The notes beneath the pieces are model-generated. The model worked only from the letters and a program-made list of their open reading frames with translations. It had not been told where the DNA came from and did not search any database. Below are positions 7,223 to 25,726 of a DNA stretch of 64,000 bases, in pieces. Position 1 is the stretch's first letter; every line of letters begins with the position of its first letter. The translations under genes were made by a program, and so were the position numbers. This DNA is from Persicimonas caeni (GTDB lineage: Bacteria; Myxococcota_A; Bradymonadia; Bradymonadales; Bradymonadaceae), in contig NZ_CP041186.1 in assembly GCF_006517175.1 (NCBI RefSeq), positions 372,001 through 436,000 on the forward strand, in the 5' to 3' direction.

Positions 7223-7747
7223 CTAGAACCACTCCTGCAACAACGCCATCGCCTCGTCGACCGAGTCGACGCCAAAGACTCGGTCTTCCTCGCCGGGAAA
7301 CCGCTCGCGCCGGTCGACCTTGCGGTCGGCCATCTCACCGCTCCACCCGTCGGTGCGAAAGGCGATGATGCGCCGGTCGTAGATCCAGGCAAACGCGATC
7401 TCACACAGCGTGCCCGCCCCGCCGCCGATGGCGATGACCGCGTCCGATTGGGCGACGAGCGCGTTGCGCATATGCCCGAGCGGCGTGGGGATGACCACGT
7501 CGACAAACTCGTTGGCCACCGCGGCGTCGGTCGTCGGCAAGATGCCGACCATGTCGCCCGCCTCGTACGCCGCGCTACTGCGCGCGCCGCGCCCGGCGGC
7601 CTCCATGATGCCGCCCTTGCCGCCGCACACGATGCGATAGCCGGCGTCGACGAGCGCGCGGCCCAGGTCTTCGGCGAGCTTTGCCTTCGGAGAGTCGACG
7701 GGCAACGTGCCGTCGCCGATGATGGAGACTGTCGGTTTACGGGTCAT
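7223..7747 (-). CDS. LOG/TIGR00725-like Rossmann protein
   Basis: The protein has 174 residues with ATG 7747 and GGGAG upstream. The fold markers are VSIIGDG at the N-terminus, GGKGGIMEAAGRGA near residue 45 and IAIGGGAGTLCEIAFAW near residue 105. These match the SLOG superfamily and specifically the TIGR00725 branch, related to the cytokinin-activating LOG phosphoribohydrolases. The LOG signature (PGGxGTxxE) is modified here to GGGAGTLCE, so nucleotide binding is expected but the reaction is uncertain. It lies downstream of the N-terminal glutamine amidase on the same strand, with a MITE inserted between them just upstream of its ribosome site. Confidence 0.85.
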   Translation of the reverse strand: MTRKPTVSIIGDGTLPVDSPKAKLAEDLGRALVDAGYRIVCGGKGGIMEAAGRGARSSAAYEAGDMVGILPTTDAAVANEFVDVVIPTPLGHMRNALVAQSDAVIAIGGGAGTLCEIAFAWIYDRRIIAFRTDGWSGEMADRKVDRRERFPGEEDRVFGVDSVDEAMALLQEWF

Positions 7748-7762
7748 AATACTCCCAGTTAG

Positions 7763-7927
7763 TACTACCTGTTCACTTTCGTGGCCCACATCTTAGCGAG
7801 GCCGGGGCCACGAGCGCGAGAAGGCATTCTGACAGTGATGCCGGTGCGCATCATGGAAGAATGACGCCGAAGCGATCGTGGCACTGGGCCGCTCCAGAGT
7901 GGGTTCATCGAAAGTGAACAGGTAGTA
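7763..7927. mobile_element. 165-bp MITE with perfect 19-bp inverted ends
   Basis: The ends TACTACCTGTTCACTTTCG (7763-7781) and its exact reverse complement (7909-7927) flank about 127 bp without a gene. A TTAG target duplication is present at 7759-7762 and 7928-7931. Size, perfect ends and target duplication fit a non-autonomous miniature element. It lies between the stop of the Nt-Gln amidase gene and the ribosome site of the LOG-like gene. Confidence 0.88.
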
Positions 7928-7931
7928 TTAG

Positions 7932-8492
7932 TCACTCTTGGCTCCCAAACCGACGCCGCATCGCCGCCGCGTCGAGCACCTCGCCGACAAAGTCGGAGTC
8001 CATGTCGATGAACCGGTCGAGGTTCATCCCCTCGTCGGGCCGAAAGATGGGCGCCCACTCGGGCGGCGGCGCCTGCCAGTGGCCCTGAGCGTCGCGCATA
8101 TGTGAGCGGTCCGACGAGAACGTCTGCAGAAAGACCCCCGCGGGCACTACCCGAAACTGCGGCTGGAACGGCTCGGGCACGGTCGCGCCGAACGGAAAGG
8201 TCGCCTGCCACCAGACGGCGAACGGCACCGGCGCGCCGACGAGCGTGTCGAGGTCCCACACCATCGCCTGCGGGCCGGAGGCGTCGACCAGCACCACGTG
8301 ATAGTCCCAGACCACCGGCGCGCCCTGCTCTCTCGCGGCCCGCTGCGCCCACAACGCGCACGTCCGGCCGGCGTTCGAGATGAACACCACCGAGGCGTCC
8401 CCGTCGGCGAAGCCGCCGTCGGCGCACAGCTGATAGATATTCTCCTCGCAGTAAAACGGTTGGTAGCGCGGGTTGGAGGTCGGCGTCGTCAT
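7932..8492 (-). CDS. Protein N-terminal glutamine amidohydrolase (Nt-Gln amidase)
   Basis: The protein has 186 residues with ATG 8492. It should deamidate N-terminal Gln of proteins to Glu, the first step of a glutamine N-degron branch known from eukaryotes (NTAQ1/Tungus). The three catalytic landmarks are conserved: Cys15 in YCEENIYQLC, His65 in WDYHVVL and Asp82 in WDLD. The length is close to the 200-residue eukaryotic enzyme. It has no signal peptide, so it is cytosolic. It probably shares a transcript with the LOG-like gene. Its targets in this bacterium are unknown. An upstream in-frame extension exists but has no family similarity. Confidence 0.88.
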   Translation of the reverse strand: MTTPTSNPRYQPFYCEENIYQLCADGGFADGDASVVFISNAGRTCALWAQRAAREQGAPVVWDYHVVLVDASGPQAMVWDLDTLVGAPVPFAVWWQATFPFGATVPEPFQPQFRVVPAGVFLQTFSSDRSHMRDAQGHWQAPPPEWAPIFRPDEGMNLDRFIDMDSDFVGEVLDAAAMRRRFGSQE

Positions 8493-8711
8493 GGCAGCGA
8501 ATATACCCACAATGCCGCAACCGGTCACCCGCAACGGAGCGCCAGAATTCGGGCGCCACGAACCAAAGAGGTGGGGCCGGAGTCGTGACTGCAAGGTTCG
8601 CGGCTCCCAACAAGTCGCGCAAAATACGAGGCGCGACGTTCCGGGAACTCGACAAACGCCGCAAAGGTCCGTCTGAAAGGTTCGATGAACAGATCATCTC
8701 GCGATTCGACC

Positions 8712-8954
8712 CTCAAATTTGGAGCCGATGGGCCTTCAAGCCGAGCCTCGAGGCTCATTTTTTGGGCTACGAAACGTTGGATCTACAACTCGTAGCTCGG
8801 CTGTGATGTTCATTGGGCGTTTGGCGTGCAACTCGAGGTTCGGCTTTTGTGTCCATTGGACGTTTGGCGTCGAACTCCGGCGGAACTCTTTGGTCCATCG
8901 AATATTTGGAATGAAGCTCCGGCCCGTTTTTTGGTCGTTTGGACCTTTTGTTGA
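8712..8954. repeat. Degenerate 42-43-bp tandem repeat array
   Basis: Successive units end in CTC at 8791, 8834, 8877 and 8919 (unit lengths 42, 43, 43 and 42), with decayed units on both sides. Shared features are a central GTCCATTGGACGTTTGGCG-like block and a terminal AACTC. The period is not a multiple of three, so this is not a coding repeat. Confidence 0.75.
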
Positions 8955-8957
8955 GGG

Positions 8958-8990
8958 CGTGGAGGAACATGGAATCGAACCGCCCGGGTG
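8958..8990 (-). other. tRNA 3'-end-like fragment
   Basis: Read on the minus strand, GGCGGTTCGATTCCATGTTC followed by CTCCA resembles a T-arm plus 3' acceptor strand. The T-stem pairs poorly and no matching 5' acceptor GGAGGAAC is found upstream. It may be a decayed attachment-site remnant or chance. Adjacent bases (GGTCGAGGTG/CACCTCGACC) form a perfect hairpin. Confidence 0.25.
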
Positions 8991-9054
8991 GTCGAGGTGC
9001 TCACCTCGACCACGTGCGGGGCCCGAGACGGACCCCGGCGGCCGAGACGAGGCC

Positions 9055-9162
9055 GTCGCAAAAGCCTTTGGAGGCAGGGCATCTTGCCCTGGGAGCAAGG
9101 CCGCACGCTGCTGCAACCAGCGCTGGAAGCGCTGCCTCCAAACGACGGCGACCCTTTGCGAC
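9055..9162. repeat. Nested imperfect palindrome
   Basis: The outer arms GTCGCAAA/TTTGCGAC and inner arms TTTGGAGGCAG/CTGCCTCCAAA (9067-9077 and 9132-9142) enclose a GC-rich centre with its own GGGCA/TGCCC hairpin. It is REP-like and non-coding. Confidence 0.6.
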
Positions 9163-9505
9163 AGCCTCGAGACGGCCGCGCCCCGACCGTCAATGCGGCG
9201 CATCAACTAAGATGTGTGGGGTCGTGAGACGGAGCCGGTTGCGGTCGCGGTCGCGGAGCCGGTCGCGGCTCACCATCCAACACAAATGGCGAAAGCGCAC
9301 AACCCGGTCGGGGCGCGCGGCTTGGCCGGGGCGCGGTCGTCTCGACCGCCGGCGGTGCCTCTGGCCCGCCGTACATGGACGACTGCTGGGAGGTTTCGAT
9401 CTGTAGGCATTGCCGACTCGCGGCGATGCCCCCGGCGGCCTCCGCCGCCTGCCCCCGAGCGATGCCCACTCGCTCCGAATCATCGAGGAGGCGTGGGGAC
9501 ATTCG

Positions 9506-9563
9506 AGTTTGGTGGCCTTGCAAGCGAGCGACGCCTGCTACATAGGGCGCCCTGAACTGCGGG
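9506..9563. repeat. Dispersed 58-bp repeat, copy 1
   Basis: This block begins GGTGGCCTTGCA and ends GCGCCCTGAACTGCGGGC. It matches 20766-20823 at about 51 of 58 positions. Both copies are intergenic. Confidence 0.8.
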
Positions 9564-9568
9564 CGTTA

Positions 9569-9655
9569 AAGACATAGGGGCTGCGTGTTGCGAGAGGTTC
9601 CAGGTTGCCGACCTGCGAATCGGAACCACCTCGCGACTCGCAGCCCCTATGTCCT
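9569..9655. repeat. 87-bp inverted-repeat element beside the IS
   Basis: Arms of about 33 bp begin with GACATAGGGGCTGCG on the left (9571 on) and end with CGCAGCCCCTATGTC on the right (up to 9653), with a 20-bp spacer. TTAA lies on both outer sides, so it may itself be a miniature element inserted at TA. The IS630 element starts immediately to its right. Confidence 0.7.
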
Positions 9656-10236
9656 TAAGTGCAAACACAGAAGTCTTGGTGCTTTGAGCCAATGATCGAT
9701 AGCACCTTATGGCGCAGTCGATTACAGCGATCGAAAAAGTCATTGGTGGCATCGACAAGCGCGTCGATGGTTTCAAACAGTTCGCAGTGAGTCACTTCCC
9801 GGCGCCAGTGCCTCCACAGCATCTCGATCGGATTGAGCCATGGTGAGTAGGTCGGCAGATACAGCAGCTTGAGTCTACCATTGCTCTGGTCGACGACGTG
9901 ATCGATTTCCTTTTTTGAGTGCATCGCAGCGTTGTCCCAGACGACGTAAACGGTCTTGTCGGGGTGCTTGGTAAGTAAGGCTTCGAGCAGCTCACATGCC
10001 TCGATGCGTCGTTTGCGCCTTCGCACCAGAACGATGCAGTCGCCGGTCTGCCAGTTGACCGCGCCGAGTCCGTAGCGTCGGGTGGTGATGCCAGGCGTCG
10101 GAATCATGACCTGTTGGCCGACGGGCGACCACATGGCTCGAAGCGTGGGCAGCCAGCTGATGTTGAATTCGTCTGCGTAGTAGAGCACCTCGTCGTCGCC
10201 TAAGTTTTCTCGGGTGGCTTCAATCTGCGCTTTTTT
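9655..10236 (-). CDS. IS630 transposase, C-terminal DDE part (orfB, by -1 frameshift)
   Basis: This frame carries the catalytic DDE core of an IS630/Tc1-mariner transposase: the first Asp in YYADEFNI, the second in VVWDNAAMH and the Glu in YSPWLNPIEMLW. It has no good start of its own. It joins orfA in the -1 frame at the heptamer A AAA AAG (10236 to 10230), giving a fusion of about 356 residues, the usual size for the family. The TAA stop is not inside the element: its TA comes from the target duplication and its last A from flanking DNA. Confidence 0.9.
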   Translation of the reverse strand, partial: KKAQIEATRENLGDDEVLYYADEFNISWLPTLRAMWSPVGQQVMIPTPGITTRRYGLGAVNWQTGDCIVLVRRRKRRIEACELLEALLTKHPDKTVYVVWDNAAMHSKKEIDHVVDQSNGRLKLLYLPTYSPWLNPIEMLWRHWRREVTHCELFETIDALVDATNDFFDRCNRLRHKVLSIIGSKHQDFCVCT

Positions 10237-10811
10237 ACGCGGTACAACGGATCGGGGCTTGTGATCTTGTGCTGTGGACGGCGCAAAACGATTCCATTGT
10301 CGGCGAGATGCCGGCGAATGGTCTCGCCACTGACCTCGATATCGAACTCTTCGGCCATGAACTCGGCAAGATGCTCGAGCGTCCAGGTCGAAACAGACTG
10401 GTCCAGGGCACGCGGGCGGTGGCGCACCACCTCGATGAGCCGCTCGACAAACTCCTCAGTTACTTTCGATGGAGCACCGGTTCGAGGCCGATCTGCAAAC
10501 CCATCAATGCCTTCATCGAGATATCGAGCAATCCATCTACCCACGGTCTGCTGGCTCATGTTCACGAGGCGTGCAATTTCAGGGGCAGACAGGCCTTGCT
10601 CGCCAGCGAGCAACACTATTTGGGCTCGCGTTCGCTCCCTGGCGACCTTGGCGTGGTGATAGAACTCGTGCAACTCGTTGATTTGCTCTTTTGCGAGCTG
10701 GATATGTTTGGCAGGACGTCCCATGATTTCGTCTCCGGTCAAGGTGGGGCTCATTCCCCAGCAAGACCCGAATCTAGACACCGTTTCTGCCAAAAATTAT
10801 GTGATTGCACT
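9658..10811 (-). mobile_element. IS630 family insertion sequence (1154 bp)
   Basis: The ends read AGTGCAA inward on the left and TTGCACT on the right. The inverted repeat extends to about 26 bp with four mismatches (CTTAAGTGCAAACACAG against CTTAAGTGCAATCACAT). TA duplications are at 9656-9657 and 10812-10813, the standard IS630 target. Both transposase frames are otherwise intact, so the copy may be active. It is flanked on both sides by small inverted-repeat elements. Confidence 0.9.
10200..10724 (-). CDS. IS630 transposase, N-terminal DNA-binding part (orfA)
   Basis: The frame encodes 174 residues from ATG 10724, with GGAG eight bases upstream. It contains the double helix-turn-helix of IS630 transposases: LSAPEIARLVNMSQQTVGRW near residue 45 and WTLEHLAEFMAEEFDIEVSG near residue 115, which bind the terminal repeats. 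Lys164-Lys165 are encoded on the slippery heptamer; without slippage translation ends nine residues later (KPPEKT). The short product could act as a repressor of transposition, as in other frameshift-controlled IS elements; this is inferred. Confidence 0.9.
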   Translation of the reverse strand: MGRPAKHIQLAKEQINELHEFYHHAKVARERTRAQIVLLAGEQGLSAPEIARLVNMSQQTVGRWIARYLDEGIDGFADRPRTGAPSKVTEEFVERLIEVVRHRPRALDQSVSTWTLEHLAEFMAEEFDIEVSGETIRRHLADNGIVLRRPQHKITSPDPLYRVKKRRLKPPEKT

Positions 10812-12844: not shown

Positions 12845-15800
12845 CTACAACGATACGAGTTCTGCCCGGTGCAGGACGCGCGCGAAGCCCGGCATATACA
12901 ATTGGGTGATCCGCGCCGGCCTGACGATGCCCTGGTCTTCCATCCAGGCCCGGCTCGCTTCGACGAGCTCGGCGCCGCGCGCTTCGTCGACGCCGGTGTG
13001 ACACAACAGCTCGCCCAGCCGGGAGGTCATGGTGATCTCGCACAGCTTCATGTCAATCGCGGAGGCCGCCTCGATATGAATCTCGAGGGTGTCGATGCAC
13101 TCGCGCGCCTCGCCGGCCACCGCGTGGGCGCAAGCTTCGAGCATGCCGGCCCACAGTTGGACCATCCGGCTGTCCTCGCGGCGAAGCTTGCGCACAAGCC
13201 GCCTCAGGCGGCGAACAGACGGTCCCTGGCTGCGTCCCTCGTCGGCGGCCGCGGCGACCAGCCGCCCCTCTTCCCAGAGGTGCGAGCCGAGCGTCGAGCG
13301 CGCGCCGCGCAGCATGGGGCTGCGGGTAAACTTGCGAATCTCTGCCTCGTGGGCGGCCAAGAACGCCTCTGCCCTCCCCTCGTAGATGGCGACCTTGCTA
13401 CGAGCGGCAAAGTGGAACCAGTGCTGCAGGTGCACCGTGTCCGCTGAGGGCGTCCACGCCGCCGACTCGAGTTCGTGGCGGGCACGCCCCGGGTCGTCGA
13501 CGAACAGAAAATACGACGGCGCCGAGGCGCCAAGCGTCGTCAGCACGAGGCGGTCGTTGCGCCGGCGCGCGTCTCGGGTGATCTCCTCGAAGTAGCGTGT
13601 GCCGCGGCGCACCTCGCCCAGGTGGCGAAACGAGAACATCAAGAAGAGCCGCGCCGAGTTGACGATATACTGGTCGCCCGCCGACTCCTCGACGAACCAC
13701 CCAATCGCCTCCTCGAGCACGTCGACGGCCGCGCAGAATCGATCGGCAAAGAAGCAGATGATGCCCCACTGGACTGCCAGATAGTGGTCGACCCAGGGGT
13801 CGTCGAGCCCCTCAGCGAGGCGGCGCGCGCGAGTCAACAGCTCTTCGGCCTCCGTGATTGCACGCGTAGTCGATGCGCTCGACCGATAACTCGCCTCGGT
13901 GGCCAGCGCGCAGGCCAACTGACGGTCGTCGCCGTAGCGAAGCGCCAGGCGAAGCTCACGGTTCTGGAAGTCGAAGCCGCGCAGCGTATCGATCGGTGCC
14001 AGGCGCCGGGCGAGCGTCGAGAAGATCTCGAGGCGCCGCAGCATCGGCTCGGCGTCGGGTCCTTCGTGGCGACGGCGGCGCAGCCCGAAGAGCGAGAAAC
14101 GAAGGCGGTTCAACCCGATGCGCGCCATCGTGGTGAGCGTGCTCCCCAGCGGAGCCACGCCCACGCTCTGGAGCACCTCGTCGACGAGCTTCAGCCCCCG
14201 GTCGACGTCACCGTTGGTGATGAACTCGGCGGCTGCCCGATGCCGAAGCTCGAGGCGACGGTCCGGCGGGACGTCGTCGAGCGCGTCGAGGTAGAGCTCG
14301 GCGGCCTCGATGCCGTGGCCGGCGTTGCTCAGGGCGTCGGCGAGCGCCAGGCGAAGGCGACGCGCGTCGGCGGGGGCGTGCTCGGCGATGTCGAGCGCGG
14401 TGCGATAGAGCTCGGCGGCGCGCTCGAAGGCCATCGCCTGCGAGGCCCTCTGCGCGGCTTGGGCCGCAAAGTCGGCGGCGCGGCGGGACTCGCCGGCCCC
14501 GTCCAGGTGGCGCACCATCAGGTGGGGCCGCTCGGCGGCCTGCCCCGTCGCCTCGAGGGCGTCGGCCAACCTTTTGTGCAGCGAGGGGCGCGCGCCCGGG
14601 TCGAGGTGCGCGGCGACCGCCTCGCGGATGCGGTCGTGATAGGCCTCGACGAGCGACTGGCCGGCGCGGTTTTCGAGGCGCAGCAGCATCTCGAGCTGGG
14701 CGTGACGGGCAGCTTCGAGGCCGTCGGCAAAGCCTACGCCCAGCGCATGCGCCAAGACGTCGATTTCGAGCGGCACACCAGCCAGGGAGACGAGCTCGAT
14801 AAGCCCGCGCACGGCACCAGGGACCGTGTGCACGCGCTCGAGGAGCATTTTTTCGAGGGCGATCTCGCCGCTGACTTCGTCGCGGCCGCCGTGTTGGACG
14901 AGTTGGTGGACGAAGAGCGGGTGGCCCTGGGTCTCGCGCACGAGTTTGTCGATCTCCGAGCCCTCGCCCACGCCTAGCGAGCTGGCGAATTCGGCGACCT
15001 CGTCGTCGCTCAAGTTCTCGAGGCGAAGCTCGAGCAGGTGGTCGGCGAAGCCGTACTTGTCGAGCGTGCGGCTGGGACGCCGCGTCATCAAGAGCAACAT
15101 CGGCGGCGCGTCGGGCGGCGACATCAATTCGCCGAGCAGCGCCAAGCTGTCGGCGTCGGCCCACTGCAAGTCGTCGATGACGACCATCAGCCGGCGCTGG
15201 CGGGCGACGCGTGCGAGCAGCCCCTTGAGCGCCGCAAAGCCGCGGCGGCGAAGCTCGCGCGGGTTGCGAATGCGATGCGCCGACTCGAGGAGCGCGCGCA
15301 CCTCGTGGACCTGTTCGAGCACCGGGAAGAGCCGCGCCAAGGCGGCCACGTCATCGGTGAGCAAGTCATCAACCCCGTCGACGCGCTGCAAAAAGTGGCT
15401 GAGATCGTCGACGACGCGATCGACGCCCTTGTAGGGCACCATCTCGCGCTCGTAGCAGCGACCGTACAGGAGCAACAGGTCGTCGTTGGATGCCTCGCGC
15501 AGGTCGACGAAGCGACGGACGAGCGCGCTCTTGCCCACCCCGGCCTCGCCGACGACCATCACATTGGCCGCAGTCCCCTCGCAGACACCCTGCCAGGCCC
15601 GCTCGAGCACGCCCAACTCGGACTCGCGCCCCACGAAGAGCGCCGAGCGCCGTGGCGGTCCGGCGGCGCTTGTCGCGGGCGCATCTGCGCCCAGAAGGAT
15701 GCCCAAGATCTCGTCAGCCGACGGCCGCGCCTCGGGTTGAGGCGACAGCAGGCGGTCGCACAAACGGCTCAACTCCGGGGTCTGCGACGACGCCTCCACG

Positions 15801-16609
15801 GCGGACTCGAAGACTCCTCGATGCTTGGCCTGGATGACCTGGAGCAGATGGCCGGTGAACGGTAACTCGCCGCACAACACCTCGTAGAGCATCACGCCCA
15901 CGGCATACAGATCGGAGGCCGGCCCCAGCTCCTTCTCGAGCGCCTGCTCCGGAGACATGTACGGAACGGTGCCGCTGAACCCACCCTGCTCGGCGGGTCG
16001 GAAGCGCAGCCCATCGAGCTCGGCGATCAAGCCGAAGTCGAGCACCACCACCCGCCCCTCGGCGGTGACGAGCACGTTCGACGGCTTGACGTCGCGGTGA
16101 ACCCGCCCAGCCTTGTGGAGCGCGTCGAGGCCGCGCACGAGTTGAGCGAGCACGTCGCGGAGCCGCGCTTCATCGAGGGAACCGTCGGCGGGCCCATGCC
16201 AGCGACTCTCCACGTTGATCGGCGAGCCGGTGTCGAAGACGGCCGCGTCGGAGTCGAGCGTGGTGAGGAGTTGACCGGTGTCCAACAAGTCGATGCTGTC
16301 GCGGCTGCCGCGCACATAACGTCGAAAGTCCGCCCCCTCGACGAGATCCATGGTGAAGAACCACAACTCCCCCTCGCTGTGTAGCTCGCGCAGGTGGATC
16401 AGATTGGGGTGCTGGATATGCTCGAGCGCCCGAAACTCCTGCTTGAACTGGTAGAGCTTGCGCCCGCTGAGGTGATGCAGCGTCTTGAGGGCGACGCGCG
16501 CGCCGCCGCGACGGTCGATGGCCTCGAAGACCATCCCCATGCCGCCCTCGCCGATCTTGCGCACGACTTCGAAGCGCCCCCCGACCAACTGCTGTCCGAC
16601 CTGGATCAC
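12845..16609 (-). CDS. Ser/Thr kinase fused to AAA ATPase and TPR sensor region
   Basis: The protein has 1254 residues with a GTG start. Residues 12-300 are a Hanks-type kinase: the Gly loop GEGGMGMV, Lys42, HRDVKPSN (171-178), DFG (191-193) and MSPEQ. A linker leads to a P-loop ATPase with FVGRESEL, Walker A GEAGVGKS (354-361) and Walker B VVIDDLQWAD. The C-terminal 650 residues are helical, TPR-like arrays. This kinase-ATPase-TPR design is common in myxobacteria-like genomes and resembles AfsR/STAND-type signalling switches. There is no membrane segment. It follows the small lipoprotein gene on the same strand with a 21-bp gap, so the two are probably co-transcribed. Its target is unknown. 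Confidence 0.94.
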   Translation of the reverse strand: MIQVGQQLVGGRFEVVRKIGEGGMGMVFEAIDRRGGARVALKTLHHLSGRKLYQFKQEFRALEHIQHPNLIHLRELHSEGELWFFTMDLVEGADFRRYVRGSRDSIDLLDTGQLLTTLDSDAAVFDTGSPINVESRWHGPADGSLDEARLRDVLAQLVRGLDALHKAGRVHRDVKPSNVLVTAEGRVVVLDFGLIAELDGLRFRPAEQGGFSGTVPYMSPEQALEKELGPASDLYAVGVMLYEVLCGELPFTGHLLQVIQAKHRGVFESAVEASSQTPELSRLCDRLLSPQPEARPSADEILGILLGADAPATSAAGPPRRSALFVGRESELGVLERAWQGVCEGTAANVMVVGEAGVGKSALVRRFVDLREASNDDLLLLYGRCYEREMVPYKGVDRVVDDLSHFLQRVDGVDDLLTDDVAALARLFPVLEQVHEVRALLESAHRIRNPRELRRRGFAALKGLLARVARQRRLMVVIDDLQWADADSLALLGELMSPPDAPPMLLLMTRRPSRTLDKYGFADHLLELRLENLSDDEVAEFASSLGVGEGSEIDKLVRETQGHPLFVHQLVQHGGRDEVSGEIALEKMLLERVHTVPGAVRGLIELVSLAGVPLEIDVLAHALGVGFADGLEAARHAQLEMLLRLENRAGQSLVEAYHDRIREAVAAHLDPGARPSLHKRLADALEATGQAAERPHLMVRHLDGAGESRRAADFAAQAAQRASQAMAFERAAELYRTALDIAEHAPADARRLRLALADALSNAGHGIEAAELYLDALDDVPPDRRLELRHRAAAEFITNGDVDRGLKLVDEVLQSVGVAPLGSTLTTMARIGLNRLRFSLFGLRRRRHEGPDAEPMLRRLEIFSTLARRLAPIDTLRGFDFQNRELRLALRYGDDRQLACALATEASYRSSASTTRAITEAEELLTRARRLAEGLDDPWVDHYLAVQWGIICFFADRFCAAVDVLEEAIGWFVEESAGDQYIVNSARLFLMFSFRHLGEVRRGTRYFEEITRDARRRNDRLVLTTLGASAPSYFLFVDDPGRARHELESAAWTPSADTVHLQHWFHFAARSKVAIYEGRAEAFLAAHEAEIRKFTRSPMLRGARSTLGSHLWEEGRLVAAAADEGRSQGPSVRRLRRLVRKLRREDSRMVQLWAGMLEACAHAVAGEARECIDTLEIHIEAASAIDMKLCEITMTSRLGELLCHTGVDEARGAELVEASRAWMEDQGIVRPARITQLYMPGFARVLHRAELVSL

Positions 16610-17053: not shown

Positions 17054-17331
17054 GACAAACCTCCGGAAGACTCGCTCCAACAGTGGACTCCGAACCACTC
17101 CATTCAAGCGGACACGCCCGCGCGCATCAAGAGCCGAGCCGAGATCGGCTAAACCAATGAGCAAACGAACGAAACGCACAAGATTGTCACGTGCGTTGCT
17201 GCGCAACTTAACGTATTTAATCCCTCCCTTGGAAGCGCTCCCACACTTCCTTCGAAGAAAAAGTAACACCTTTGCCGGCCTCCGGTGTTTGACCTTGTGA
17301 GAGCCGCGAAGAGAGCCAAGAAGTACTCCCG
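17054..17331. promoter_or_regulatory. Divergent promoter region of ECF sigma gene
   Basis: This 278-bp gap must contain promoters for the leftward lipoprotein/kinase pair and the rightward sigma operon. AACACC...GGTGTT (17265-17289) forms an inverted repeat immediately followed by TTGACC. No ECF-type -35/-10 pair can be called with confidence. Confidence 0.35.
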
Positions 17332-17820
17332 ATGGCGATTGACACGAAAGACTATTACGAACGCTACGGTCCGATGGTCCTGCGTCGTTGCCGCGCGCTG
17401 TTGCGCAACGAGGACGATGCGCTCGATGCGATGCAAGAGACGTTCGTCAAGGTGCTCGAGAACGAAGAGCGCCTGTCGGACGACGCTCCGTCGAGCCTGT
17501 TGTACCGCATGGCGACGAACGTGTGTCTGAATCGCATCCGCGCGGCGTCGCGGCGCCCGGAGGTGGCCGCCAACGAGCTGGTCTACGAGATCGCTCAACT
17601 GGGCGACGCCGGCGGGCGCACCGAGGCGCGGAACTTCCTGCACCGGATCTTCCGGCGCGAGAAGGCATCGACGCGCCAAATCGCCGCGCTCTATTGGCTC
17701 GAAGACCGCACCTATCAAGAGGTCGCCGACGAGGTCGGCATGTCGGTCTCCGGGGTGCGAAAGCGCCTGCGGCAGTTGAGGCAATCGCTGGAGCGTCAGG
17801 GACTGGAGCTACGAGGGTAG
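17332..17820 (+). CDS. ECF-type RNA polymerase sigma factor
   Basis: The protein has 162 residues. Region 2 spans about residues 8-75 (YGPMVLRRCRALLRNEDDAL and DAMQETFVKVLE, the core-binding and -10 recognition part). Region 4 spans about residues 108-155 (ALYWLEDRTYQEVADEVGMSVSGVRKRL, the helix-turn-helix for the -35). No region 3 is present, which defines the ECF class. The upstream AAGAGAG gives a ribosome site. The next gene begins 7 bp after the stop and encodes a membrane protein that probably sequesters this factor. The downstream caspase and surface-repeat genes are the likely regulon; this is inferred from position. Confidence 0.94.
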   Translation: MAIDTKDYYERYGPMVLRRCRALLRNEDDALDAMQETFVKVLENEERLSDDAPSSLLYRMATNVCLNRIRAASRRPEVAANELVYEIAQLGDAGGRTEARNFLHRIFRREKASTRQIAALYWLEDRTYQEVADEVGMSVSGVRKRLRQLRQSLERQGLELRG

Positions 17821-17827
17821 ATCGACG

Positions 17828-18664
17828 ATGAGTGACGACGACCACAAAGAGGCCGGAGCAGGCCCCGACCTGCTGCTCGAGCGCGTGGCGCTGGGCGAGG
17901 CGACCGACGAGGAGCGACGCGCGTTGCAGGCCAAGCTGGCCGAGCGCGGCGAAGACCTCGACGAGCGTCTGGCCGCGCTGCGCTCCTCCGATGAGGAGAT
18001 CTTGGCGGAGTATCCCGCCGAGATGATGGCTGCGCGTATCGACGCGCGCCTCGACGAGCGACGCAAGGCCAAGGAGCGCGAGGCGCGACGGCCTAGCCGC
18101 GGCGGCTGGTATGCGGGCCTGGGCGTGTTGGCGACCGCGGCGGTGGCGGCGTTCTTCGTGCTGAATCTGCCAGGAGAGCAGAACACGGGACCGGTCGTCG
18201 CAGGCGACCAGTACACGGACCGAAACGGTGAGACGGTGCGCCTCAAAGGCGCCGAGCCCAAGCTCATCGTGTGGCGCAAGTCGGGCGAGGAGCCCGAGCG
18301 CCTGAGAGCCGGCGCGACCGCCGGCGAAGGCGACGTGCTCCAGCTCGAGTACAACGCCGCCGGCGCCGCCCACGGCGTCATCGCCTCCATCGACGGCCGC
18401 GGCGTGGTCACCCTGCACTACCCGGCGGCTGCAGACGGCAGCACGAAGCTCGACGACGGGGTCGTCGCCCTCGGCCACAGCTACGAGCTCGACGACGCGC
18501 CCGACTTCGAGCGGTTCTTCTTCGTCACCTCGAACGAGCCCGTCGACGTCGCCCGGGTGACCGGGGCGCTCGACGCACTCGTCGCCTCCGGAAAAGCACG
18601 CGCGGGGCTGCCCGAACTGCCCGAAGGCACCCAGCACACTGATTTCGCCGTGGAGAAGCAATAA
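17828..18664 (+). CDS. Membrane anti-sigma-like protein
   Basis: The protein has 278 residues. An acidic cytoplasmic N-terminus of about 95 residues is rich in charged helices (ERRALQAKLAERGEDLDERL). One membrane segment follows (WYAGLGVLATAAVAAFFVL) and then a periplasmic domain (LKGAEPKLIVWRKSGEEPER, GDVLQLEYNAAGAAHGV). This layout fits a single-pass anti-sigma factor and resembles ActD-like proteins of myxobacteria. The zinc-binding HxxxCxxC motif of ZAS anti-sigma factors is absent. Its stop codon overlaps the next start (TAATG at 18662-18666), so the caspase gene is translationally coupled. Confidence 0.75.
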   Translation: MSDDDHKEAGAGPDLLLERVALGEATDEERRALQAKLAERGEDLDERLAALRSSDEEILAEYPAEMMAARIDARLDERRKAKEREARRPSRGGWYAGLGVLATAAVAAFFVLNLPGEQNTGPVVAGDQYTDRNGETVRLKGAEPKLIVWRKSGEEPERLRAGATAGEGDVLQLEYNAAGAAHGVIASIDGRGVVTLHYPAAADGSTKLDDGVVALGHSYELDDAPDFERFFFVTSNEPVDVARVTGALDALVASGKARAGLPELPEGTQHTDFAVEKQ

Positions 18665-20751
18665 TGTCGCGGTCTACTTGCCTGACTATGAACCTCTTCG
18701 TCCGACTTGCCCTCGTGTGTGGCGGCCTCGTGTGTGGAGCCGCTCCGGCCCTCGCCGCCGGGGATGAACCCACCCAGCGCTACGTACTGCTGGTCGCAGC
18801 CAACGACGGCGGCAAGGAGCGCGTCAAATTGCGCTACGCGGCCACCGACGCCCAGGCGCTCGGCGAGGTGCTCGTGCAGATGGGCGGCGTGCCCGAAGGT
18901 AACACCGAGCTTGTCGCCGAGCCGTCGCCGAGCGAGCTCACCGACGCGATCGCCAAGCTCGAAAAGAAGATCGCCGCCCAAAACGCCAAGGGACGGCGCA
19001 CCGAGCTGCTCTTCTACTACTCGGGCCACTCCGACGAACGCGGCCTACTGCTGGGTGAGAACCGCTACGGCTACCGCAGCTTGCGCCGCAAGCTCGACAA
19101 GATCCCGGCCGACGTGCGCCTGATCATCTTGGACTCGTGCTCCTCGGGAGCGCTCACGCGCACCAAAGGCGGCAAGCGCGCGCCCGCTTTCCTGACCGAC
19201 CAGGCGAGTGAGGTCAAAGGCCACGCCATTTTGACGTCGAGCTCTCAAGACGAGGCCGCCCAGGAGTCCGACGCCATCGGCGCGTCGTTCTTCACCCACT
19301 TCTTGGTCTCGGGGCTTCGCGGCGCGGCCGACGCCAGCGGCGACCGGCGCGTCACCCTCAACGAGGCGTACCGCTACGCCTTCGACGAGACCCTGGCGCG
19401 CACCCAGAACACCCGCGGCGGCGCCCAGCACGCGGCCTACGACATCCAGATGACCGGCCACGGCGACCTCGTGCTCACCGAGCTTCAGAAGACCAACGCC
19501 ACGCTCGTCATCGACGAGAAGCTCACCGGGCGCGTGTGGGTGCGCACTCGGGACAACCGATTGGTCGCCGAGGTTACCAAGCACGCCGGGCGTGCGCTCG
19601 AGTTGGGGTTGGCCAGCGGCGCCTACAAGGTGCAACTGGCCGCCCACGGCAAAGCCTACGCGGCCGACGTGAGCCTGACGAAGGGCAAAAAGGCGACCGT
19701 CGGCGCCGACGCCTTCGAGATGATCGGCACCGAGGAGACGGTGCTTCGCGGCGACGTCTCACCGGCGCGCCCCGAGCCCATCTTCTTCGGCATCGACTTC
19801 GCTCCCGGCGTGGGCACCTCGTCCGTCGCCCCCGATCGACCGCGCAAGATCTCGTTCAATATCGTCGGCGGCATGAGCGGCGGCACCGAGTGGTTCGAGC
19901 TCGCCCCGGCGCTCAACATCGACAACGGCCCGGTCAGCGGCGTACAGATCGCCGGCGCGTTGAACTTGGACACCGACGAAGTCAACGGCGTGCAAGTCGC
20001 CGGTGGTCTGAACTTGAACCGCGGCACGACCCGCGGCGTGCAGTTCGCCGGCGGCGTCAACGTCGTGCCCGACTTCGCCGGCGTGCAATTCGCCGGGGGA
20101 CTCAACCTGGCGACGGGCGACGTGGCCGGCGTGCAAGTCGCCCCGGCGAATTTCGCCCGCAAGCTCGACGGGCTGCAACTCGGCGTGCTCAACATCTCCG
20201 AGGGCCACGTCGACGGGCTGCAACTCGGCGTCATCAACATCGCGCCGACCGCCGACGCCGGCGTAGGCCTACTGGGGATCTACTGGGACGGCTTCGTCCA
20301 GCCCGAAGCGGTGGGCAACTCCGAGGGCATCATGTTCACGGGCATCCGCCACGGCGGCGGGCCGTTCTACAACGTCTACTACGTCGGCACCCGCGCGCTG
20401 GTCGACGGCGGCGGGCCGCTCGCCTACGCGCTCGGCTTCGGCTGGCACACTCAACTCGGCGAGCGCTTCGAGTTCGCGACCGACCTGACGTTTGGCAACG
20501 TGCTCGGCGAAGGGGGCGATTGGAGGGCTCAAGGGAGCCTCGCGAGCCTCCGGCCCACGTTGTCGTACGCGGTTTTCGATGGGGTGACGGTCTTCGGCGG
20601 CCCGACGGCCAATCTGATGCTGTCCACCGGCGACGCGGACCGCGACCCGACGACTTGGGCGCCCACGGTCGCTTGGGAGCTCACCGACAGCGATGCGGCC
20701 AATCGAGTGGCGCTGTGGCCCGGGTTTACGGCGGGGTTGCGGTTCTTCTGA
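18664..20751 (+). CDS. Secreted caspase-like protease with GVQxAG surface repeats
   Basis: The protein has 695 residues. A signal peptide ends near residue 32 (PALAAG). Residues about 36-290 are a peptidase C14 domain: strand RYVLLVAAND, catalytic His122 in LFYYSGHSDERG and Cys159 in LIILDSCSSGA. A PEGA-like beta domain spans about 290-370. From about 395 come 16-residue repeats (GVQIAGALNL, GVQVAGGLNL, GVQFAGGVNV, GLQLGVINI), as in LA_2272-type surface repeat proteins, then a beta-strand-rich end finishing in Phe. The repeat part may form an outer-membrane or surface beta structure. It is coupled to the anti-sigma gene; the next gene repeats its C-terminal half. The substrate is unknown. Confidence 0.9.
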   Translation: MSRSTCLTMNLFVRLALVCGGLVCGAAPALAAGDEPTQRYVLLVAANDGGKERVKLRYAATDAQALGEVLVQMGGVPEGNTELVAEPSPSELTDAIAKLEKKIAAQNAKGRRTELLFYYSGHSDERGLLLGENRYGYRSLRRKLDKIPADVRLIILDSCSSGALTRTKGGKRAPAFLTDQASEVKGHAILTSSSQDEAAQESDAIGASFFTHFLVSGLRGAADASGDRRVTLNEAYRYAFDETLARTQNTRGGAQHAAYDIQMTGHGDLVLTELQKTNATLVIDEKLTGRVWVRTRDNRLVAEVTKHAGRALELGLASGAYKVQLAAHGKAYAADVSLTKGKKATVGADAFEMIGTEETVLRGDVSPARPEPIFFGIDFAPGVGTSSVAPDRPRKISFNIVGGMSGGTEWFELAPALNIDNGPVSGVQIAGALNLDTDEVNGVQVAGGLNLNRGTTRGVQFAGGVNVVPDFAGVQFAGGLNLATGDVAGVQVAPANFARKLDGLQLGVLNISEGHVDGLQLGVINIAPTADAGVGLLGIYWDGFVQPEAVGNSEGIMFTGIRHGGGPFYNVYYVGTRALVDGGGPLAYALGFGWHTQLGERFEFATDLTFGNVLGEGGDWRAQGSLASLRPTLSYAVFDGVTVFGGPTANLMLSTGDADRDPTTWAPTVAWELTDSDAANRVALWPGFTAGLRFF

Positions 20752-20765
20752 GGGTTGGCCATGGC

Positions 20766-20823
20766 GGTGGCCTTGCAGACCAGCAACACCTGCTACTTGG
20801 GGCGCCCTGAACTGCGGGCGTTA
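20766..20823. repeat. Dispersed 58-bp repeat, copy 2
   Basis: This block matches 9506-9563 at about 51 of 58 bases and ends in GCGCCCTGAACTGCGGGCGT. It starts 14 bp after the caspase gene stop. Confidence 0.8.
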
Positions 20824-20972
20824 GGGGGTTGCTTTTTTCAGACAACCATCATTTCCAAATAAAAGTGACGCCTATCTGGGGCTGCGGTGTTTCACCTTTC
20901 GAACGGGCGGCGATATGTCGCCCACACAAATATCCAGGTAAACCGAGTCTCATATATACCCCGGAGTACGTA

Positions 20973-22148
20973 ATGAAACGTCTTTTGATTTGCACCATCC
21001 TCGCCCTCCTCACCTTCAACGTATCGAGCGCATTCGCCGAAGAGTCTGCCGAAGAAGTTGCCGAAGAATCTGCCGAACAAGAGGAGAAAACGACCACCGA
21101 AGAAGAGCCCATCGCCATCGGCTTCGACCTGCTCCCCTACGTGGGCACCTCGAGCGCCGCGCCCGACCGACGACGCAACGTGTCGTTGAACCTGGGCGGC
21201 GGCTTGAGCGGGGGTATCAACTCGTTCGAAATCGCCGCGGGCTTCAATATCGCCACCGGTGAGGTGCGCGGAGCGCAGCTCGCCGGCGGGTTCAACATCG
21301 ACGGCGCCGACGTGCGCGCCGCGCAGTTTGCCGGCGGCTTCAACGTCGTCGGAGGAAGTGTCGATGGGGTACAGGCCGGCGGCGGCTTCAACGTCACCGG
21401 CGGCGACATCAACGGCGTGCAGGCCGCAGGCGGCTTCAACGTCACCGGCGGGGACGTCGACGGCGTGCAGGCCGGCGGCGGCTTCAACGTCACCGGCGGC
21501 ACGATCGACGGCGCCCAGCTCGCCGGCGGGTTCAACTTGGCCGGGGAAGGCGTCGACGGCGTGCAGATTGCGCCCATCAACATCGCCGGCGGCCATGTCG
21601 CCGGCGCCCAGATCGGCGTCATCAATATCGCCAAGTCGGCCGACGCCGGTGTGGGCATCATCGGCATCTACACCGACGGCTATGTGCAAGCCGAAGCGCT
21701 CGGCTCGGACGACGGGCTGATGATGGGCGGGATCCGCCACGGCAGCGGCTCGTTCTACAACGTCTATTACGTGGGCACCCGCCCCTTCGCAGATGAAGGC
21801 TTGCCGCTGGCGATGGGTCTGGGCTTTGGCTGGCGCGCCGAGATTGGCAGCCGCGCCGAGTTCTCCATCGACCTGATGGGAGCTTCGGTCACCGGCGGCG
21901 GCGAAGACTTCGACTGGGACGACAACTACAGCCTCATCAAGCTTCGCCCGATGGTCTCGGTCGACCTGGTCGACGGCCTCGCCCTGTTCGGCGGCCCCAC
22001 CGCCACGGTGCTCCTCGACGGTGACACCCAGAATACCAGCGTCGACGACCTGGCGCTCCTCGGCGGCTGGGAACTCGCCGACGGCGAGGGCGACGAGCCG
22101 TACGTGGGCATCTGGCCCGGGTTTACCGTGGGCGCGCGGTTCTTCTGA
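20973..22148 (+). CDS. Surface protein with GVQxAG repeats (paralogue of caspase C-terminus)
   Basis: The protein has 391 residues from ATG 20973 with GGAG upstream. The signal peptide is LLICTILALLTFNVSSAFA, followed by a Glu-rich spacer. It then follows the second half of the caspase protein: YVGTSSAAPDRRRNVSLNLG, eight or so 16-residue repeats (GVQAGGGFNVTGGDIN and variants), ADAGVGIIGIYTDGYVQ, GIRHGSGSFYNVYYVGTR and a C-terminus GFTVGARFF. Repeats are nearly identical at the DNA level (48-bp units, 21357-21540), implying recent expansion or conversion. The terminal Phe and alternating strands suggest an outer-membrane barrel or solenoid. It lacks the protease domain. Confidence 0.85.
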   Translation: MKRLLICTILALLTFNVSSAFAEESAEEVAEESAEQEEKTTTEEEPIAIGFDLLPYVGTSSAAPDRRRNVSLNLGGGLSGGINSFEIAAGFNIATGEVRGAQLAGGFNIDGADVRAAQFAGGFNVVGGSVDGVQAGGGFNVTGGDINGVQAAGGFNVTGGDVDGVQAGGGFNVTGGTIDGAQLAGGFNLAGEGVDGVQIAPINIAGGHVAGAQIGVINIAKSADAGVGIIGIYTDGYVQAEALGSDDGLMMGGIRHGSGSFYNVYYVGTRPFADEGLPLAMGLGFGWRAEIGSRAEFSIDLMGASVTGGGEDFDWDDNYSLIKLRPMVSVDLVDGLALFGGPTATVLLDGDTQNTSVDDLALLGGWELADGEGDEPYVGIWPGFTVGARFF

Positions 22149-22249
22149 GGAGCCTTGGCGCCTGGCGGCGTGGGTCGCGGGTTGCTTTGGCCAGGCGAAT
22201 CGGCCATCCTTCCGATGTCTTTTACAAACAGAGATATCGGAGCAGAGCG

Positions 22250-25200
22250 ATGGACGACCGTGTCGTAAATAGAGGAAAATTGTGGGCGGGAGTCGCCGCC
22301 GTGGCTGGCCTGACGCTGGTCTCGGCGAGCGCCTCGGCCCAGACGACCATCCCCGGCGGCAACCTGGGCAACCAGACCTGGACCCAGTCGAATAGCCCCT
22401 ACATCATCCAAGGCGACGCGACCGTGCAGGCGGGCGCGACCTTGACGATCGAAGCCGGCGTCGAGGTGCGCTTCTCGACCTCCGACAACCTCGGCTCGGG
22501 GCGCGACACCAGCCGCCCGGAGTTGACCGTCGCCGGCAGCATCGACGTCAACGGCACGGCCAACTCGCCGGTGGTGTTCCGCTCGAACGTGGGGAGCAAC
22601 GCCGGCAGCTGGTACGGCATTATCCTGACGTCGACGACGACCTCTGCGAGCTTCGACCACGCACGTGTCGAGCACGGCGTCGACGGGCTGACCACCGACG
22701 CTCCCGGCACGACGTTTACCGCCAACCACCTCATCTTGCAGAACAACTCCTCCGACGGCCTGGTCATCGACGCGGGTACCCCGTCGCTGAACGACGTCGC
22801 CACGTTGAACAACGGGGCCAAGGGCGTCACCATCGCCTCCTCTGCTGCGGCGACTCTGACCCGCCTTCGCTCTAGAGGTAACTCGAATGGCATCAGCATC
22901 ACCCAGACGTCGGCGACGCCCCAAGACACCGTCCTCGACTACGCGACCGTCTGGAGCAACAGCGGCGACGGGGTCTACCTGGGCGGCTCGGGCAGCTACA
23001 GCCGGTCGGTCAAGGTGCGCAATAGCATCGTGGTCGAAAACGGCTTGGACGGCATCGAGAAGTATTATTACTCGGACTCGTCGGTCGACATCACCTACAG
23101 CAACGTGTGGGGGAACGGCGACGATTACGACGACACCTCTCCGGGCACCGGCAGCTTTGGGTGCAACCCGCTCTTCGTCTCGCCGACCGACGCCACGCTG
23201 ACCGAGCGAAGCCCGGCGCGCAAAAGCAGCGATGTGGGGACCGACCTGGGAGCGCTGGCCTACGCGGGAGCTCCCACTCCGGGACTCTACGGCACGTTGT
23301 GGGAGGACACGGTGTTGGACGCGGCAGGCAGCCCGTACACCATCGACGGTGACCTGGCCGTCGGAGAAGGCTACACGCTTACCATCGAGAGCGGCGCCGA
23401 GCTTCGCTTCAACGCGGGCGACACGATGCAGTGTGGCCGCGACAGCAGCCTCGGCGAGCTCAAAGTCGACGGAACTCTGGTCGTCCAGGGCACGCTGTCG
23501 ACGCCGGCGGTGCTGCGCGGCGCGAGCACCTCGTCGGGCGCCTGGTGGGGTATCGACGTGCGAGAAGGCGGCACGGCCAATATCAGCGGCGCCGATATCG
23601 CCAACGCGGTCAACGGCGTGAGCCACAACTCCTCGACCACGCTCCAACTGTCGTATACCGACATCCACGACGGCTCCGGAGCAGGCATCGACCTCTCGCG
23701 GGGAAGTGCCATGCTCGATGGGGTCAAGAGCTACCGCAACTCCAAAGGCCTGCAGGTCGATTCGGCAGCTTGGTTCGAAGCGACCAACATGGTGTTGGCC
23801 CAGAACCAAAACGGCGTGCAAGTTACGCAGACCAGCAGCACGCCACAATCGTCGACCATCCACAGCTCGACGATCGACGGCAACTCGGGTGACGGCGTCT
23901 ACCTGGGCGGCAGCGGCTCCTATTCGCGAAGCCTGAAGATCATCAACTCGAATGTTACGAATAACGGGTTGGACGGCATCGAGAAGTACTATTACTCGGA
24001 CTCGTCAGTCGACATCACCTACAGCAACGTGTGGAGTAACGGCGACGACTACGACGACACATCGGCCGGCACCGGCTGCATCAGCGCCAACCCGTTTTAT
24101 ACCGACACGGCCAACCTCGACTACAGCTTGATGATGGGCAGCGTGTGCATCGACGCCGGTGACGGCGCCACCGCCCCCGACCACGACGCCCTGGGCAACG
24201 CTCGCCCGGCCGACGGCGACGGCGTCAACGGAGCCGCCTATGATATCGGCGCCTACGAGTACGGCGCGGCCAGCCAGTGTGGCGACGGCAACACGGGCCC
24301 CGGTGAGGTGTGCGACGACGGCGCCAACAACGGATCGTACGGCTATTGCCTGAGCGATTGCTCGGGGCTGGGCGCGCGCTGCGGCGACGGCACGGTGCAG
24401 TCGAGCCACGAAACCTGCGACGACGGCGCCGACAACGGCTCGTATGGCTTCTGCAACAACACATGTGACGGCCAGGCCGCCTACTGCGGCGACGGCACCG
24501 TCAACGGCAACGAGACCTGTGACGACGGCTCGAATAACGGCTCGTACGGCTACTGCCTGGGCGACTGCTCCGACATGGGCCCGTATTGCGGCGACGACAC
24601 GATCAACGGCAACGAGACCTGCGACGACGGCTCGAATAACGGCAGCCCCGGCTACTGCAATGCCAACTGCACCGGCCAAGTCGCCTCGTGTGGTGACGGC
24701 CAGGTCCAATCGGGCGAGGCGTGCGACGACGGCGCCAACAACGGCCAATACGGCTACTGCGCCGCCGACTGCTCGGGCCCCGGGCCGAGCTGCGGCGACG
24801 GCACCGTCAACGGCAACGAGGCTTGCGACGACGGTAACCTGAGCAACACCGACGACTGCCTGAACACCTGCGAGGCGCCCACCTGCGGTGACGGCTACGT
24901 GCACGCCGAGGTCGAAGAGTGCGACGACGCCAACAACGACAATACCGACGCGTGTGTCGAGGGCTGCGTGGCCGCGGTATGCGGCGACAGCTACGTGCAC
25001 CAGGGAGTGGAGGGATGCGATGACGGTAACGACGACAATACCGACGGCTGCACCGATGGATGCACCCTGGTCAGCTGCGGCGACGGCCAAGTCCAACCCG
25101 GCGAAGAGTGCGACGACGGCAACTCGAGCAACCTGGACAACTGCCTGAACACCTGCGTGCGCTCGAGCTGTGGCGACGGCCACCAGCAGCCCGGCGAGGC

Positions 25201-25726
25201 GTGTGATGACGGCAACGACGCCGACAACGACGCGTGTCTGTCGACCTGCCGTAACGCCGCCTGCGGCGACGGCATCGTCCACGACGGCGTCGAGGAGTGC
25301 GACGACGGCAACGGCTCGAACACCGACAGTTGCCTGGTCACCTGTGAAGCCGCTACGTGCGGCGACGGCTACCTAGAGGCCGACGTCGAGGAGTGCGATG
25401 ACGGCAACACGGACAACGGCGACGGGTGCAGCAGCGCATGTGTCGTGGAAGCCGGCGACGACGTGGGCACCGGCGGCGACGCCGGCACCGGAGCCGACGC
25501 GGGCACCGGCGGCGACGCAGGCATCGACAGCGACGCCGGCGGCGCCGATGCAGGCACCGGCGGCGACGTCGGCGACGGCACCGGCAACGTCGACCAAAAC
25601 GCAGGCGCGGCCGACGAAGGTTGCGGTTGCTCGTCGACCTCTGACTCTCCCGCTCCCGGCAACGCGGTCTACCTCGGCCTGGTCGTCCTCGGGCTGGCCG
25701 GCGCGCGGCTTCGCCGCCGCCGTTGA
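22250..25726 (+). CDS. Large surface protein: beta-helix, 12 DUF4215 Cys repeats, MYXO-CTERM-like tail
   Basis: The protein has 1158 residues from ATG 22250 with GGAG upstream and a signal peptide ending SASAQ. Residues 30-670 hold two similar right-handed beta-helix halves; both contain GVYLGGSGSYSRS and GLDGIEKYYYSDSSVDITYS. Twelve DUF4215 repeats follow (CGDG..NGNETCDDG..NNG pattern, Cys-rich). A Gly/Asp/Ala/Thr linker then leads to GCGCSSTSDSPAP, a hydrophobic segment and an Arg cluster, a MYXO-CTERM-like sorting signal. It is probably processed and anchored at the outer surface. Being downstream of the caspase and repeat genes, it may belong to the same sigma-controlled surface programme. 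Confidence 0.92.
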   Translation: MDDRVVNRGKLWAGVAAVAGLTLVSASASAQTTIPGGNLGNQTWTQSNSPYIIQGDATVQAGATLTIEAGVEVRFSTSDNLGSGRDTSRPELTVAGSIDVNGTANSPVVFRSNVGSNAGSWYGIILTSTTTSASFDHARVEHGVDGLTTDAPGTTFTANHLILQNNSSDGLVIDAGTPSLNDVATLNNGAKGVTIASSAAATLTRLRSRGNSNGISITQTSATPQDTVLDYATVWSNSGDGVYLGGSGSYSRSVKVRNSIVVENGLDGIEKYYYSDSSVDITYSNVWGNGDDYDDTSPGTGSFGCNPLFVSPTDATLTERSPARKSSDVGTDLGALAYAGAPTPGLYGTLWEDTVLDAAGSPYTIDGDLAVGEGYTLTIESGAELRFNAGDTMQCGRDSSLGELKVDGTLVVQGTLSTPAVLRGASTSSGAWWGIDVREGGTANISGADIANAVNGVSHNSSTTLQLSYTDIHDGSGAGIDLSRGSAMLDGVKSYRNSKGLQVDSAAWFEATNMVLAQNQNGVQVTQTSSTPQSSTIHSSTIDGNSGDGVYLGGSGSYSRSLKIINSNVTNNGLDGIEKYYYSDSSVDITYSNVWSNGDDYDDTSAGTGCISANPFYTDTANLDYSLMMGSVCIDAGDGATAPDHDALGNARPADGDGVNGAAYDIGAYEYGAASQCGDGNTGPGEVCDDGANNGSYGYCLSDCSGLGARCGDGTVQSSHETCDDGADNGSYGFCNNTCDGQAAYCGDGTVNGNETCDDGSNNGSYGYCLGDCSDMGPYCGDDTINGNETCDDGSNNGSPGYCNANCTGQVASCGDGQVQSGEACDDGANNGQYGYCAADCSGPGPSCGDGTVNGNEACDDGNLSNTDDCLNTCEAPTCGDGYVHAEVEECDDANNDNTDACVEGCVAAVCGDSYVHQGVEGCDDGNDDNTDGCTDGCTLVSCGDGQVQPGEECDDGNSSNLDNCLNTCVRSSCGDGHQQPGEACDDGNDADNDACLSTCRNAACGDGIVHDGVEECDDGNGSNTDSCLVTCEAATCGDGYLEADVEECDDGNTDNGDGCSSACVVEAGDDVGTGGDAGTGADAGTGGDAGIDSDAGGADAGTGGDVGDGTGNVDQNAGAADEGCGCSSTSDSPAPGNAVYLGLVVLGLAGARLRRRR

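Follow-up and report, generated by a model that had tools for sequence, protein, structure and literature searches.

The window analysed here is a 64,000-nucleotide stretch of the Persicimonas caeni genome (contig NZ_CP041186.1, positions 372,001 to 436,000; coordinates below are those of the stretch). It carries a plus-strand operon (17332-20751) encoding an extracytoplasmic function (ECF) sigma factor, a transmembrane anti-sigma factor and a secreted caspase. These three genes and the one that follows, encoding a repeat protein without a protease domain, almost certainly form a single sigma-controlled module. The presence of the operon in multiple phyla, together with a common promoter, points to a so far undescribed envelope-stress pathway, with possible cleavage of the sigma inhibitor by the protease. 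The gene set, its conservation, the common element, a candidate regulon, the catalytic residues, the predicted folds and the tight linkage of anti-sigma and caspase were all established computationally. An earlier, sequence-only reading of this DNA had proposed a system of five genes; four of them bore the proposal out and the fifth, a MYXO-CTERM gene, fell outside the unit. The features of the module are:

17263-17290, plus strand: promoter element 1, GTAACACC...CGGTGTT (-35/-10-like), upstream of the ECF gene; 31.3 bits

17332-17820, plus strand: ECF sigma factor (PF04542, 4e-15; TIGR02937, 1.5e-18)

17828-18664, plus strand: transmembrane anti-sigma factor (weak NCBIfam anti-sigma match, 4e-5; structure model)

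18239-18250, plus strand: R-L-K-G motif between the transmembrane helix and the DUF4384-type domain; putative caspase cleavage site

18664-20751, plus strand: secreted orthocaspase (PF00656, 7e-8; NF047832; LA_2272 repeats, NF047436; structure model)

19027-19029, plus strand: catalytic His122, invariant in 17/17 and 38/38 aligned homologues

19138-19140, plus strand: catalytic Cys159, invariant in 17/17 and 38/38; context D157-S158-C159

20865-20892, plus strand: promoter element 2, GTGACGCC...CGGTGTT, upstream of the repeat-only gene; 19.3 bits

20973-22148, plus strand: repeat-only outer-membrane-type protein, the C-terminal module of the caspase without the protease (LA_2272 repeat over cut-off)

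Profile matches agreed with the families that had been named for the five genes (ECF sigma, membrane anti-sigma-like, caspase, repeat-only and DUF4215/MYXO-CTERM). The sigma factor (162 aa, 47-60% identity with its eight closest homologues) exceeded the cut-offs of both PF04542 and PF04545 and therefore belongs to group IV of sigma-70, whose members have sigma-70 regions 2 and 4 only and a length of about 160-200 aa. The TAATG coupling noticed earlier was located between the anti-sigma stop and the caspase start, which overlap by one base. The next gene indeed encodes the same repeat module without the protease (48% identity to the caspase C-terminus over 346 aa). Its start is most likely the ATG at 20973, 3′ of its promoter element, and a mechanically assigned TTG at 20829 was set aside.

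A promoter-like element, GTRACR-N15-GGTGTT, was found upstream of both the sigma gene and the repeat-only gene. Read side by side, the two sites share the block GTAACACCT-N11-CGGTGTTT at 17263 and GTGACGCCT-N11-CGGTGTTT at 20865, with identical spacing, and the best unrelated site in the window scored 12.0 bits. With fewer than two mismatches, GTRACRCC-N12-CGGTGTT occurred in two places only in the whole genome (8,047,206 bases, one contig), both of them the window sites. Independent promoters had been named as a point against a common system; the repeat-only gene does have a promoter of its own, yet it is of the same type as that of the sigma gene.

The caspase had 326 relatives in one-per-species genomes, and the loci of the best 80 of these were studied. 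They came from Myxococcota (M. xanthus, Corallococcus, Archangium and others), Spirochaetes, Fibrobacter, Fermentibacteria, Aminicenantes, Goldiibacteriota and one Gemmatimonadetes record. Since several of the records are metagenome bins, single taxonomic labels are tentative. Two loci labelled Comamonas sp. KCTC 72670 (L141 and L183, BNCN01) had a layout closely like the Myxococcus loci, and this record is probably mislabelled or contaminated. Removal of four duplicates and six contig-edge loci left 70 independent loci. Sigma and anti-sigma genes directly preceded the caspase on the same strand in 45 of the 70, in several phyla, and a further 12 had the anti-sigma gene without the sigma gene, so that anti-sigma and caspase occurred together in 57. 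This recurrence of the gene order in 45 independent loci places the arrangement far beyond chance. The sequence-only reading, which took homologues mostly lacking the sigma/anti-sigma pair as a sign against a system, withstood the count.

Because the pattern had been derived from the two window sites, it was tested on other genomes. The homologous sigma gene was preceded by the element, at equal spacing, in six of eight close relatives. A matrix trained on seven sites (those of the six relatives and that of the window sigma gene) then served to scan 76 further loci, chosen by caspase similarity alone, so that the resulting statistics refer to loci picked by homology. Of its 126 matches, 63 fell where a sigma, anti-sigma or caspase gene begins; such regions account for 8.6% of the bases scanned. 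The mean for thirty column-permuted matrices was 2.5, with a maximum of 10, and altering the spacer by 1-4 bases left 1-9. Homologous operons in different phyla were preceded by this element at an unchanged spacing. Nine Myxococcus-group loci (L138, L141, L143, L145, L147, L148, L150, L160 and L178) had no sigma gene, and there the anti-sigma-caspase pair kept the element. Repeat-only genes with the element were also found in L144 and L167, with a weaker case in L153. Relatives lacking the caspase operon (L071-L083) served as a negative control, and the element did not exceed the threshold at their repeat-only homologues. Among 39 relatives searched with the stringent element, 11 genomes with a close sigma homologue gave 12 matches against 1 in the control, and the other 28 gave 5 against 3. 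Four one-mismatch matches elsewhere in the P. caeni genome (L133-L136) were examined and not counted, as three lay inside open reading frames and the fourth had no clear target.

The best support for assigning the element to this sigma factor came from M. xanthus AM003, which repeats the window arrangement with the genes unlinked. Its genome contained four exact element sites and none in the reversed control. They precede the anti-sigma-caspase pair, an unlinked sigma gene, exbB-exbD and a gene related to the repeat-only protein. The sigma gene is the best match in that genome (222 bits, the next being 101). The repeat-family gene ends at a contig edge before the repeats, and its kinship was judged from 57% identity over 46 aa.

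Elsewhere, the genes behind the element encoded an ExbB-type proton-channel protein (several genomes), DUF2807 proteins (two), an outer-membrane barrel protein (two), a fatty-acid desaturase, an HlyD-type membrane-fusion protein and secreted lipoprotein-like proteins. The regulon candidates mostly have envelope functions. The DUF2807 (GIN-domain) genes are at 5260-5913 of L054, directly upstream of the sigma gene, and at 4393-5139 (minus strand) of L124. The barrel proteins of L127 (3387-4097, minus strand) and L132 (3369-4061, minus strand) are similar to each other, and this protein is likely to be a conserved regulon member. In the Myxococcus-group paralogues L175, L177, L180, L185 and L216 a caspase-repeat gene lies several genes 3′ of the element-bearing ExbB-type gene; the interval between the two holds a long open frame and a lipoprotein-like gene in L175 and L216.

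The caspase model (mean pLDDT 86.8) and the profile matches gave a signal peptide, a caspase domain (37-276), a beta-sandwich (about 279-346), LA_2272 repeats (about 394-480) and an outer-membrane-type beta-barrel (about 480-694). The caspase domain aligned with metacaspase-4 over 208 aa (Z 20.9, root-mean-square deviation 2.8). With its caspase fold and His-Cys dyad the protein is an orthocaspase of peptidase family C14, and Asp157 stands two residues ahead of Cys159, as in metacaspases and orthocaspases. Metacaspases and orthocaspases with this Asp cleave after Arg or Lys, a preference also given in PMC6426788. Repeats of 16 aa (48 nt) follow one another in the C-terminal module and formed short two-strand units in the model, and the LA_2272 repeat NF047436 scored 42.7 and 26.6 bits in the two window proteins against a curated cut-off of 25. 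A fold search with the long strands of residues 480-694 matched the outer-membrane barrels OprF, NspA and OmpA; all non-protease matches listed were membrane barrels, the best being OprF (E 0.011, probability 1.00). The sequence-only reading had seen the C-terminus as a repeat solenoid. The repeats are there, and rather than forming a solenoid alone they lead into the long-stranded barrel. The location of the caspase in the outer membrane, and the side of the membrane that it faces, are predictions from the model.

For the anti-sigma factor the model (mean pLDDT 82.9) predicted a four-helix N-terminal domain (13-87), one transmembrane helix (about 91-112) and a periplasmic beta domain (145-277). 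A helical, cytoplasmic sigma-binding domain followed by a transmembrane helix is the layout of class I anti-sigma factors, to which the protein would belong by its predicted structure. The zinc-binding HxxxCxxC motif was absent from the window protein and present in divergent homologues, with zf-HC2 matches. The periplasmic domain appears to be related to DUF4384 (PF14326): the window protein itself scored under the threshold, whereas five of 13 aligned homologues matched (best 6e-5), as did L194 (2e-5). A fold search with the anti-sigma model returned weak, generic beta-sandwich matches alone and no conclusion was drawn from it. At the start of the periplasmic domain, xKG was conserved in all 62 full anti-sigma homologues and RxKG in 54 of them, and the conserved lysine of this motif may be the point at which the caspase cleaves.

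Three observations tie the anti-sigma factor to the caspase. The stop codon of the one overlapped the start codon of the other in 47 of 61 loci. Where the sigma gene was unlinked, in Myxococcus-group loci, the anti-sigma gene stayed with the caspase. In L153, L187 and L194 a DUF4384-type protein still preceded the caspase though the sigma-binding domain was gone; the L187 partner is an apparent lipoprotein. Elsewhere, moreover, DUF4384 has been reported in fusion with orthocaspases (PMC6426788 and PMC7475262).

From these data we infer the membrane topology, the signal and the cleavage of the anti-sigma factor by the caspase as follows. In the resting state the ECF sigma factor would be kept at the inner membrane by the transmembrane anti-sigma factor. 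The exported caspase would be anchored in the outer membrane through its C-terminal barrel, and its catalytic domain would therefore face the periplasm. Outer-membrane trouble would be sensed by the barrel/repeat part of the caspase, and the repeat-only protein may compete for, or buffer, the signal. The caspase would then cut the periplasmic part of the anti-sigma factor, most likely after the RxKG lysine, and the remaining stump would be removed. The freed sigma factor would then act at GTRACR-N15-GGTGTT promoters to transcribe both the operon that encodes it and the gene of the repeat-only outer-membrane protein. The chances that this whole autoregulated envelope-stress mechanism is right, anti-sigma cleavage included, seem to us evenly balanced. 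Our confidence falls slightly short of that for the specific proposal of an ECF sigma pathway, common to several phyla, whose sensor protease is a caspase anchored in the outer membrane that cuts DUF4384-type anti-sigma factors across the periplasm. Regulated proteolysis, proposed in the sequence-only reading, persists as the best interpretation of the module; the surface proteins named there as targets are less well supported than the adjacent anti-sigma factor.

Several observations weigh against cleavage of the anti-sigma factor by the caspase or against the wider pathway. The KG motif abuts the first strand of its domain and its conservation could be structural. L194, which lacks the sigma-binding part, also lacks the KG motif; among other such variants L187 keeps it and L153 has R-G only, and the variants are not decisive. 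The barrel matches were moderate in E-value (0.01). In 13 of the 70 loci the caspase had neither partner on the same strand; three of these had a divergent sigma gene nearby and the rest were mostly Myxococcus paralogues in exbB-type operons. In four relatives (L239-L242), sigma genes close to this one had a longer anti-sigma-like partner (396-698 aa) and no caspase, and probably represent a sister subfamily with another sensor. At the sigma genes of two close relatives (L053 and L054) the element was not clearly present; L054 instead has a 19.6-bit site ahead of the DUF2807 gene upstream.

The same data can be read with the caspase as output. The DUF4384-type domain would sense stress, in the manner of other anti-sigma factors, ordinary proteases would cut the anti-sigma factor, and the sigma factor would then raise the outer-membrane caspase and the repeat protein. 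These two might break down damaged proteins of the envelope, remodel the surface or kill the cell. In favour of this reading, the caspase has a sigma-type promoter even where the sigma gene is elsewhere (L144, L167, L196 and L212), some caspases of this family have no anti-sigma gene beside them, others lie 3′ of exbB-type genes with the same promoter (L175 and L216), and the regulon candidates are mostly envelope genes. Taken alone, however, this explanation does not account for the stop-start overlap in the 47 loci, for the anti-sigma gene staying with the caspase and not with the sigma gene upon separation, or for the persistence of the DUF4384 partner without a sigma-binding part, and we regard it as rather unlikely.

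Less probable still, the DUF4384-type domain could be an inhibitor or activation platform of the caspase rather than its substrate, with one signal freeing both the sigma factor inside and the caspase outside. Retention of the DUF4384 partner without the sigma-binding domain, including as the apparent lipoprotein of L187, would fit such a role, as would the reported DUF4384-orthocaspase fusions. Finally, AACAC/GTGTT within the element looks partly palindromic, but the notion that it is the operator of another regulator, with sigma and caspase linked by mere neighbourhood, is very improbable: column-by-column asymmetry and a strict spacing, as in sigma promoters, rule out a dyad operator, an unlinked sigma gene, too, has the element before it, the loci share no other recurrent regulator, and among the 39 relatives enrichment was seen only alongside a close sigma homologue.

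The fifth gene of the original proposal is separate from the sigma-controlled module:

22250-25726, plus strand: DUF4215/choice-of-anchor Q/MYXO-CTERM surface protein, outside the system

No promoter element was found upstream of it (best score -7), and no DUF4215 gene was found beside the operon in the relatives scanned. Two similar halves make up the N-terminal portion of the protein, after which come about 10 cysteine-rich DUF4215-type repeats. Upstream of the system, 12845-16609 (minus strand) encodes a large protein resembling a serine/threonine kinase fused to an ATPase-like region. A second, distant operon of sigma factor, membrane protein and secreted protease-like protein was present in the same genome (L069, 3758000-3773000, at about 6676-10264, minus strand); its protease had 26% identity to the window caspase domain and scored under the Pfam caspase threshold.

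Caspase-family proteases are common in bacteria, and to our knowledge the native substrate and trigger have not been established for most of them. From genome context, one conserved caspase family here acquires a likely partner or substrate in the neighbouring anti-sigma factor, along with a predicted location at the periplasmic side of the outer membrane, a candidate cleavage motif, a promoter and a small regulon. The laboratory model Myxococcus xanthus has the system too, and only four promoters are predicted there. The role of bacterial caspases thereby becomes directly testable. If the proposed pathway is correct, a death-protease family would act as the first step of transcriptional signalling from the bacterial outer membrane.

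The classical counterpart is the DegS-RseA-sigmaE (RpoE) system of E. coli. Both have an ECF sigma factor, a transmembrane anti-sigma factor and a periplasmic protease, known in the window from genes and predicted topology, and both have an envelope-gene regulon, a candidate one here, that includes the sigma gene, and an ECF-type -35/-10 geometry. Unlike DegS, a PDZ serine protease of the inner membrane, the window protease is an operon-encoded caspase (clan CD), predicted to be tethered to the outer membrane, and the periplasmic domain of the anti-sigma factor is of the DUF4384 type.

The type III-E CRISPR system Craspase comprises Csx29 (a TPR-CHAT caspase-like protease), Csx30 and CASP-sigma, and cleavage of the inhibitor has been proposed to free the sigma factor (PMC10028731). 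There too a caspase-fold protease, an ECF sigma inhibitor and an ECF sigma factor are encoded together, with sigma motifs in the locus that point to autoregulation. Craspase differs in being triggered by target RNA via Cas7-11. The window caspase is an exported protein with a predicted membrane barrel, and the inhibitor, whose cleavage is conjectural, crosses the membrane once and carries a DUF4384-type domain. No cas families were found among the genes examined at 16.6-27.5 kb, and no dedicated search for CRISPR arrays was made. Since the protease is an exported caspase and the neighbours examined include no cas genes, we did not file the system, which would work like DegS-RseA-sigmaE and Craspase, as a member of either.

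The window caspase resembles bacterial orthocaspases (C14) in its His-Cys dyad, the Asp two before Cys and the association with DUF4384, as far as these are covered in the consulted portions of PMC6426788 and PMC7475262. It differs in having DUF4384 on a separate anti-sigma factor, in the fusion of the protease to LA_2272 repeats and a barrel, and in sigma control; those portions of the two papers describe no sigma link of orthocaspases. With the LA_2272 surface-repeat proteins (NF047436; Leptospira LA2272) both window proteins share repeats over the cut-off and a predicted outer-membrane or surface location, the difference being that one is fused to a caspase and that both lie behind a common sigma-type promoter. 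ECF54 genes also adjoin proteases, caspase-type (CHAT) or other (subtilase), and proteolytic control has been proposed for them; they were described without anti-sigma control (PMC8999054), whereas here an anti-sigma gene sits between sigma factor and protease. No description of the sigma/anti-sigma/caspase arrangement was found in the literature searched, mostly open papers, and ECF group tables, outside that search, could list a caspase neighbour. If the proposed pathway holds, the logic of Craspase, in which a protease cuts a sigma inhibitor, would have a widespread envelope counterpart unrelated to CRISPR.

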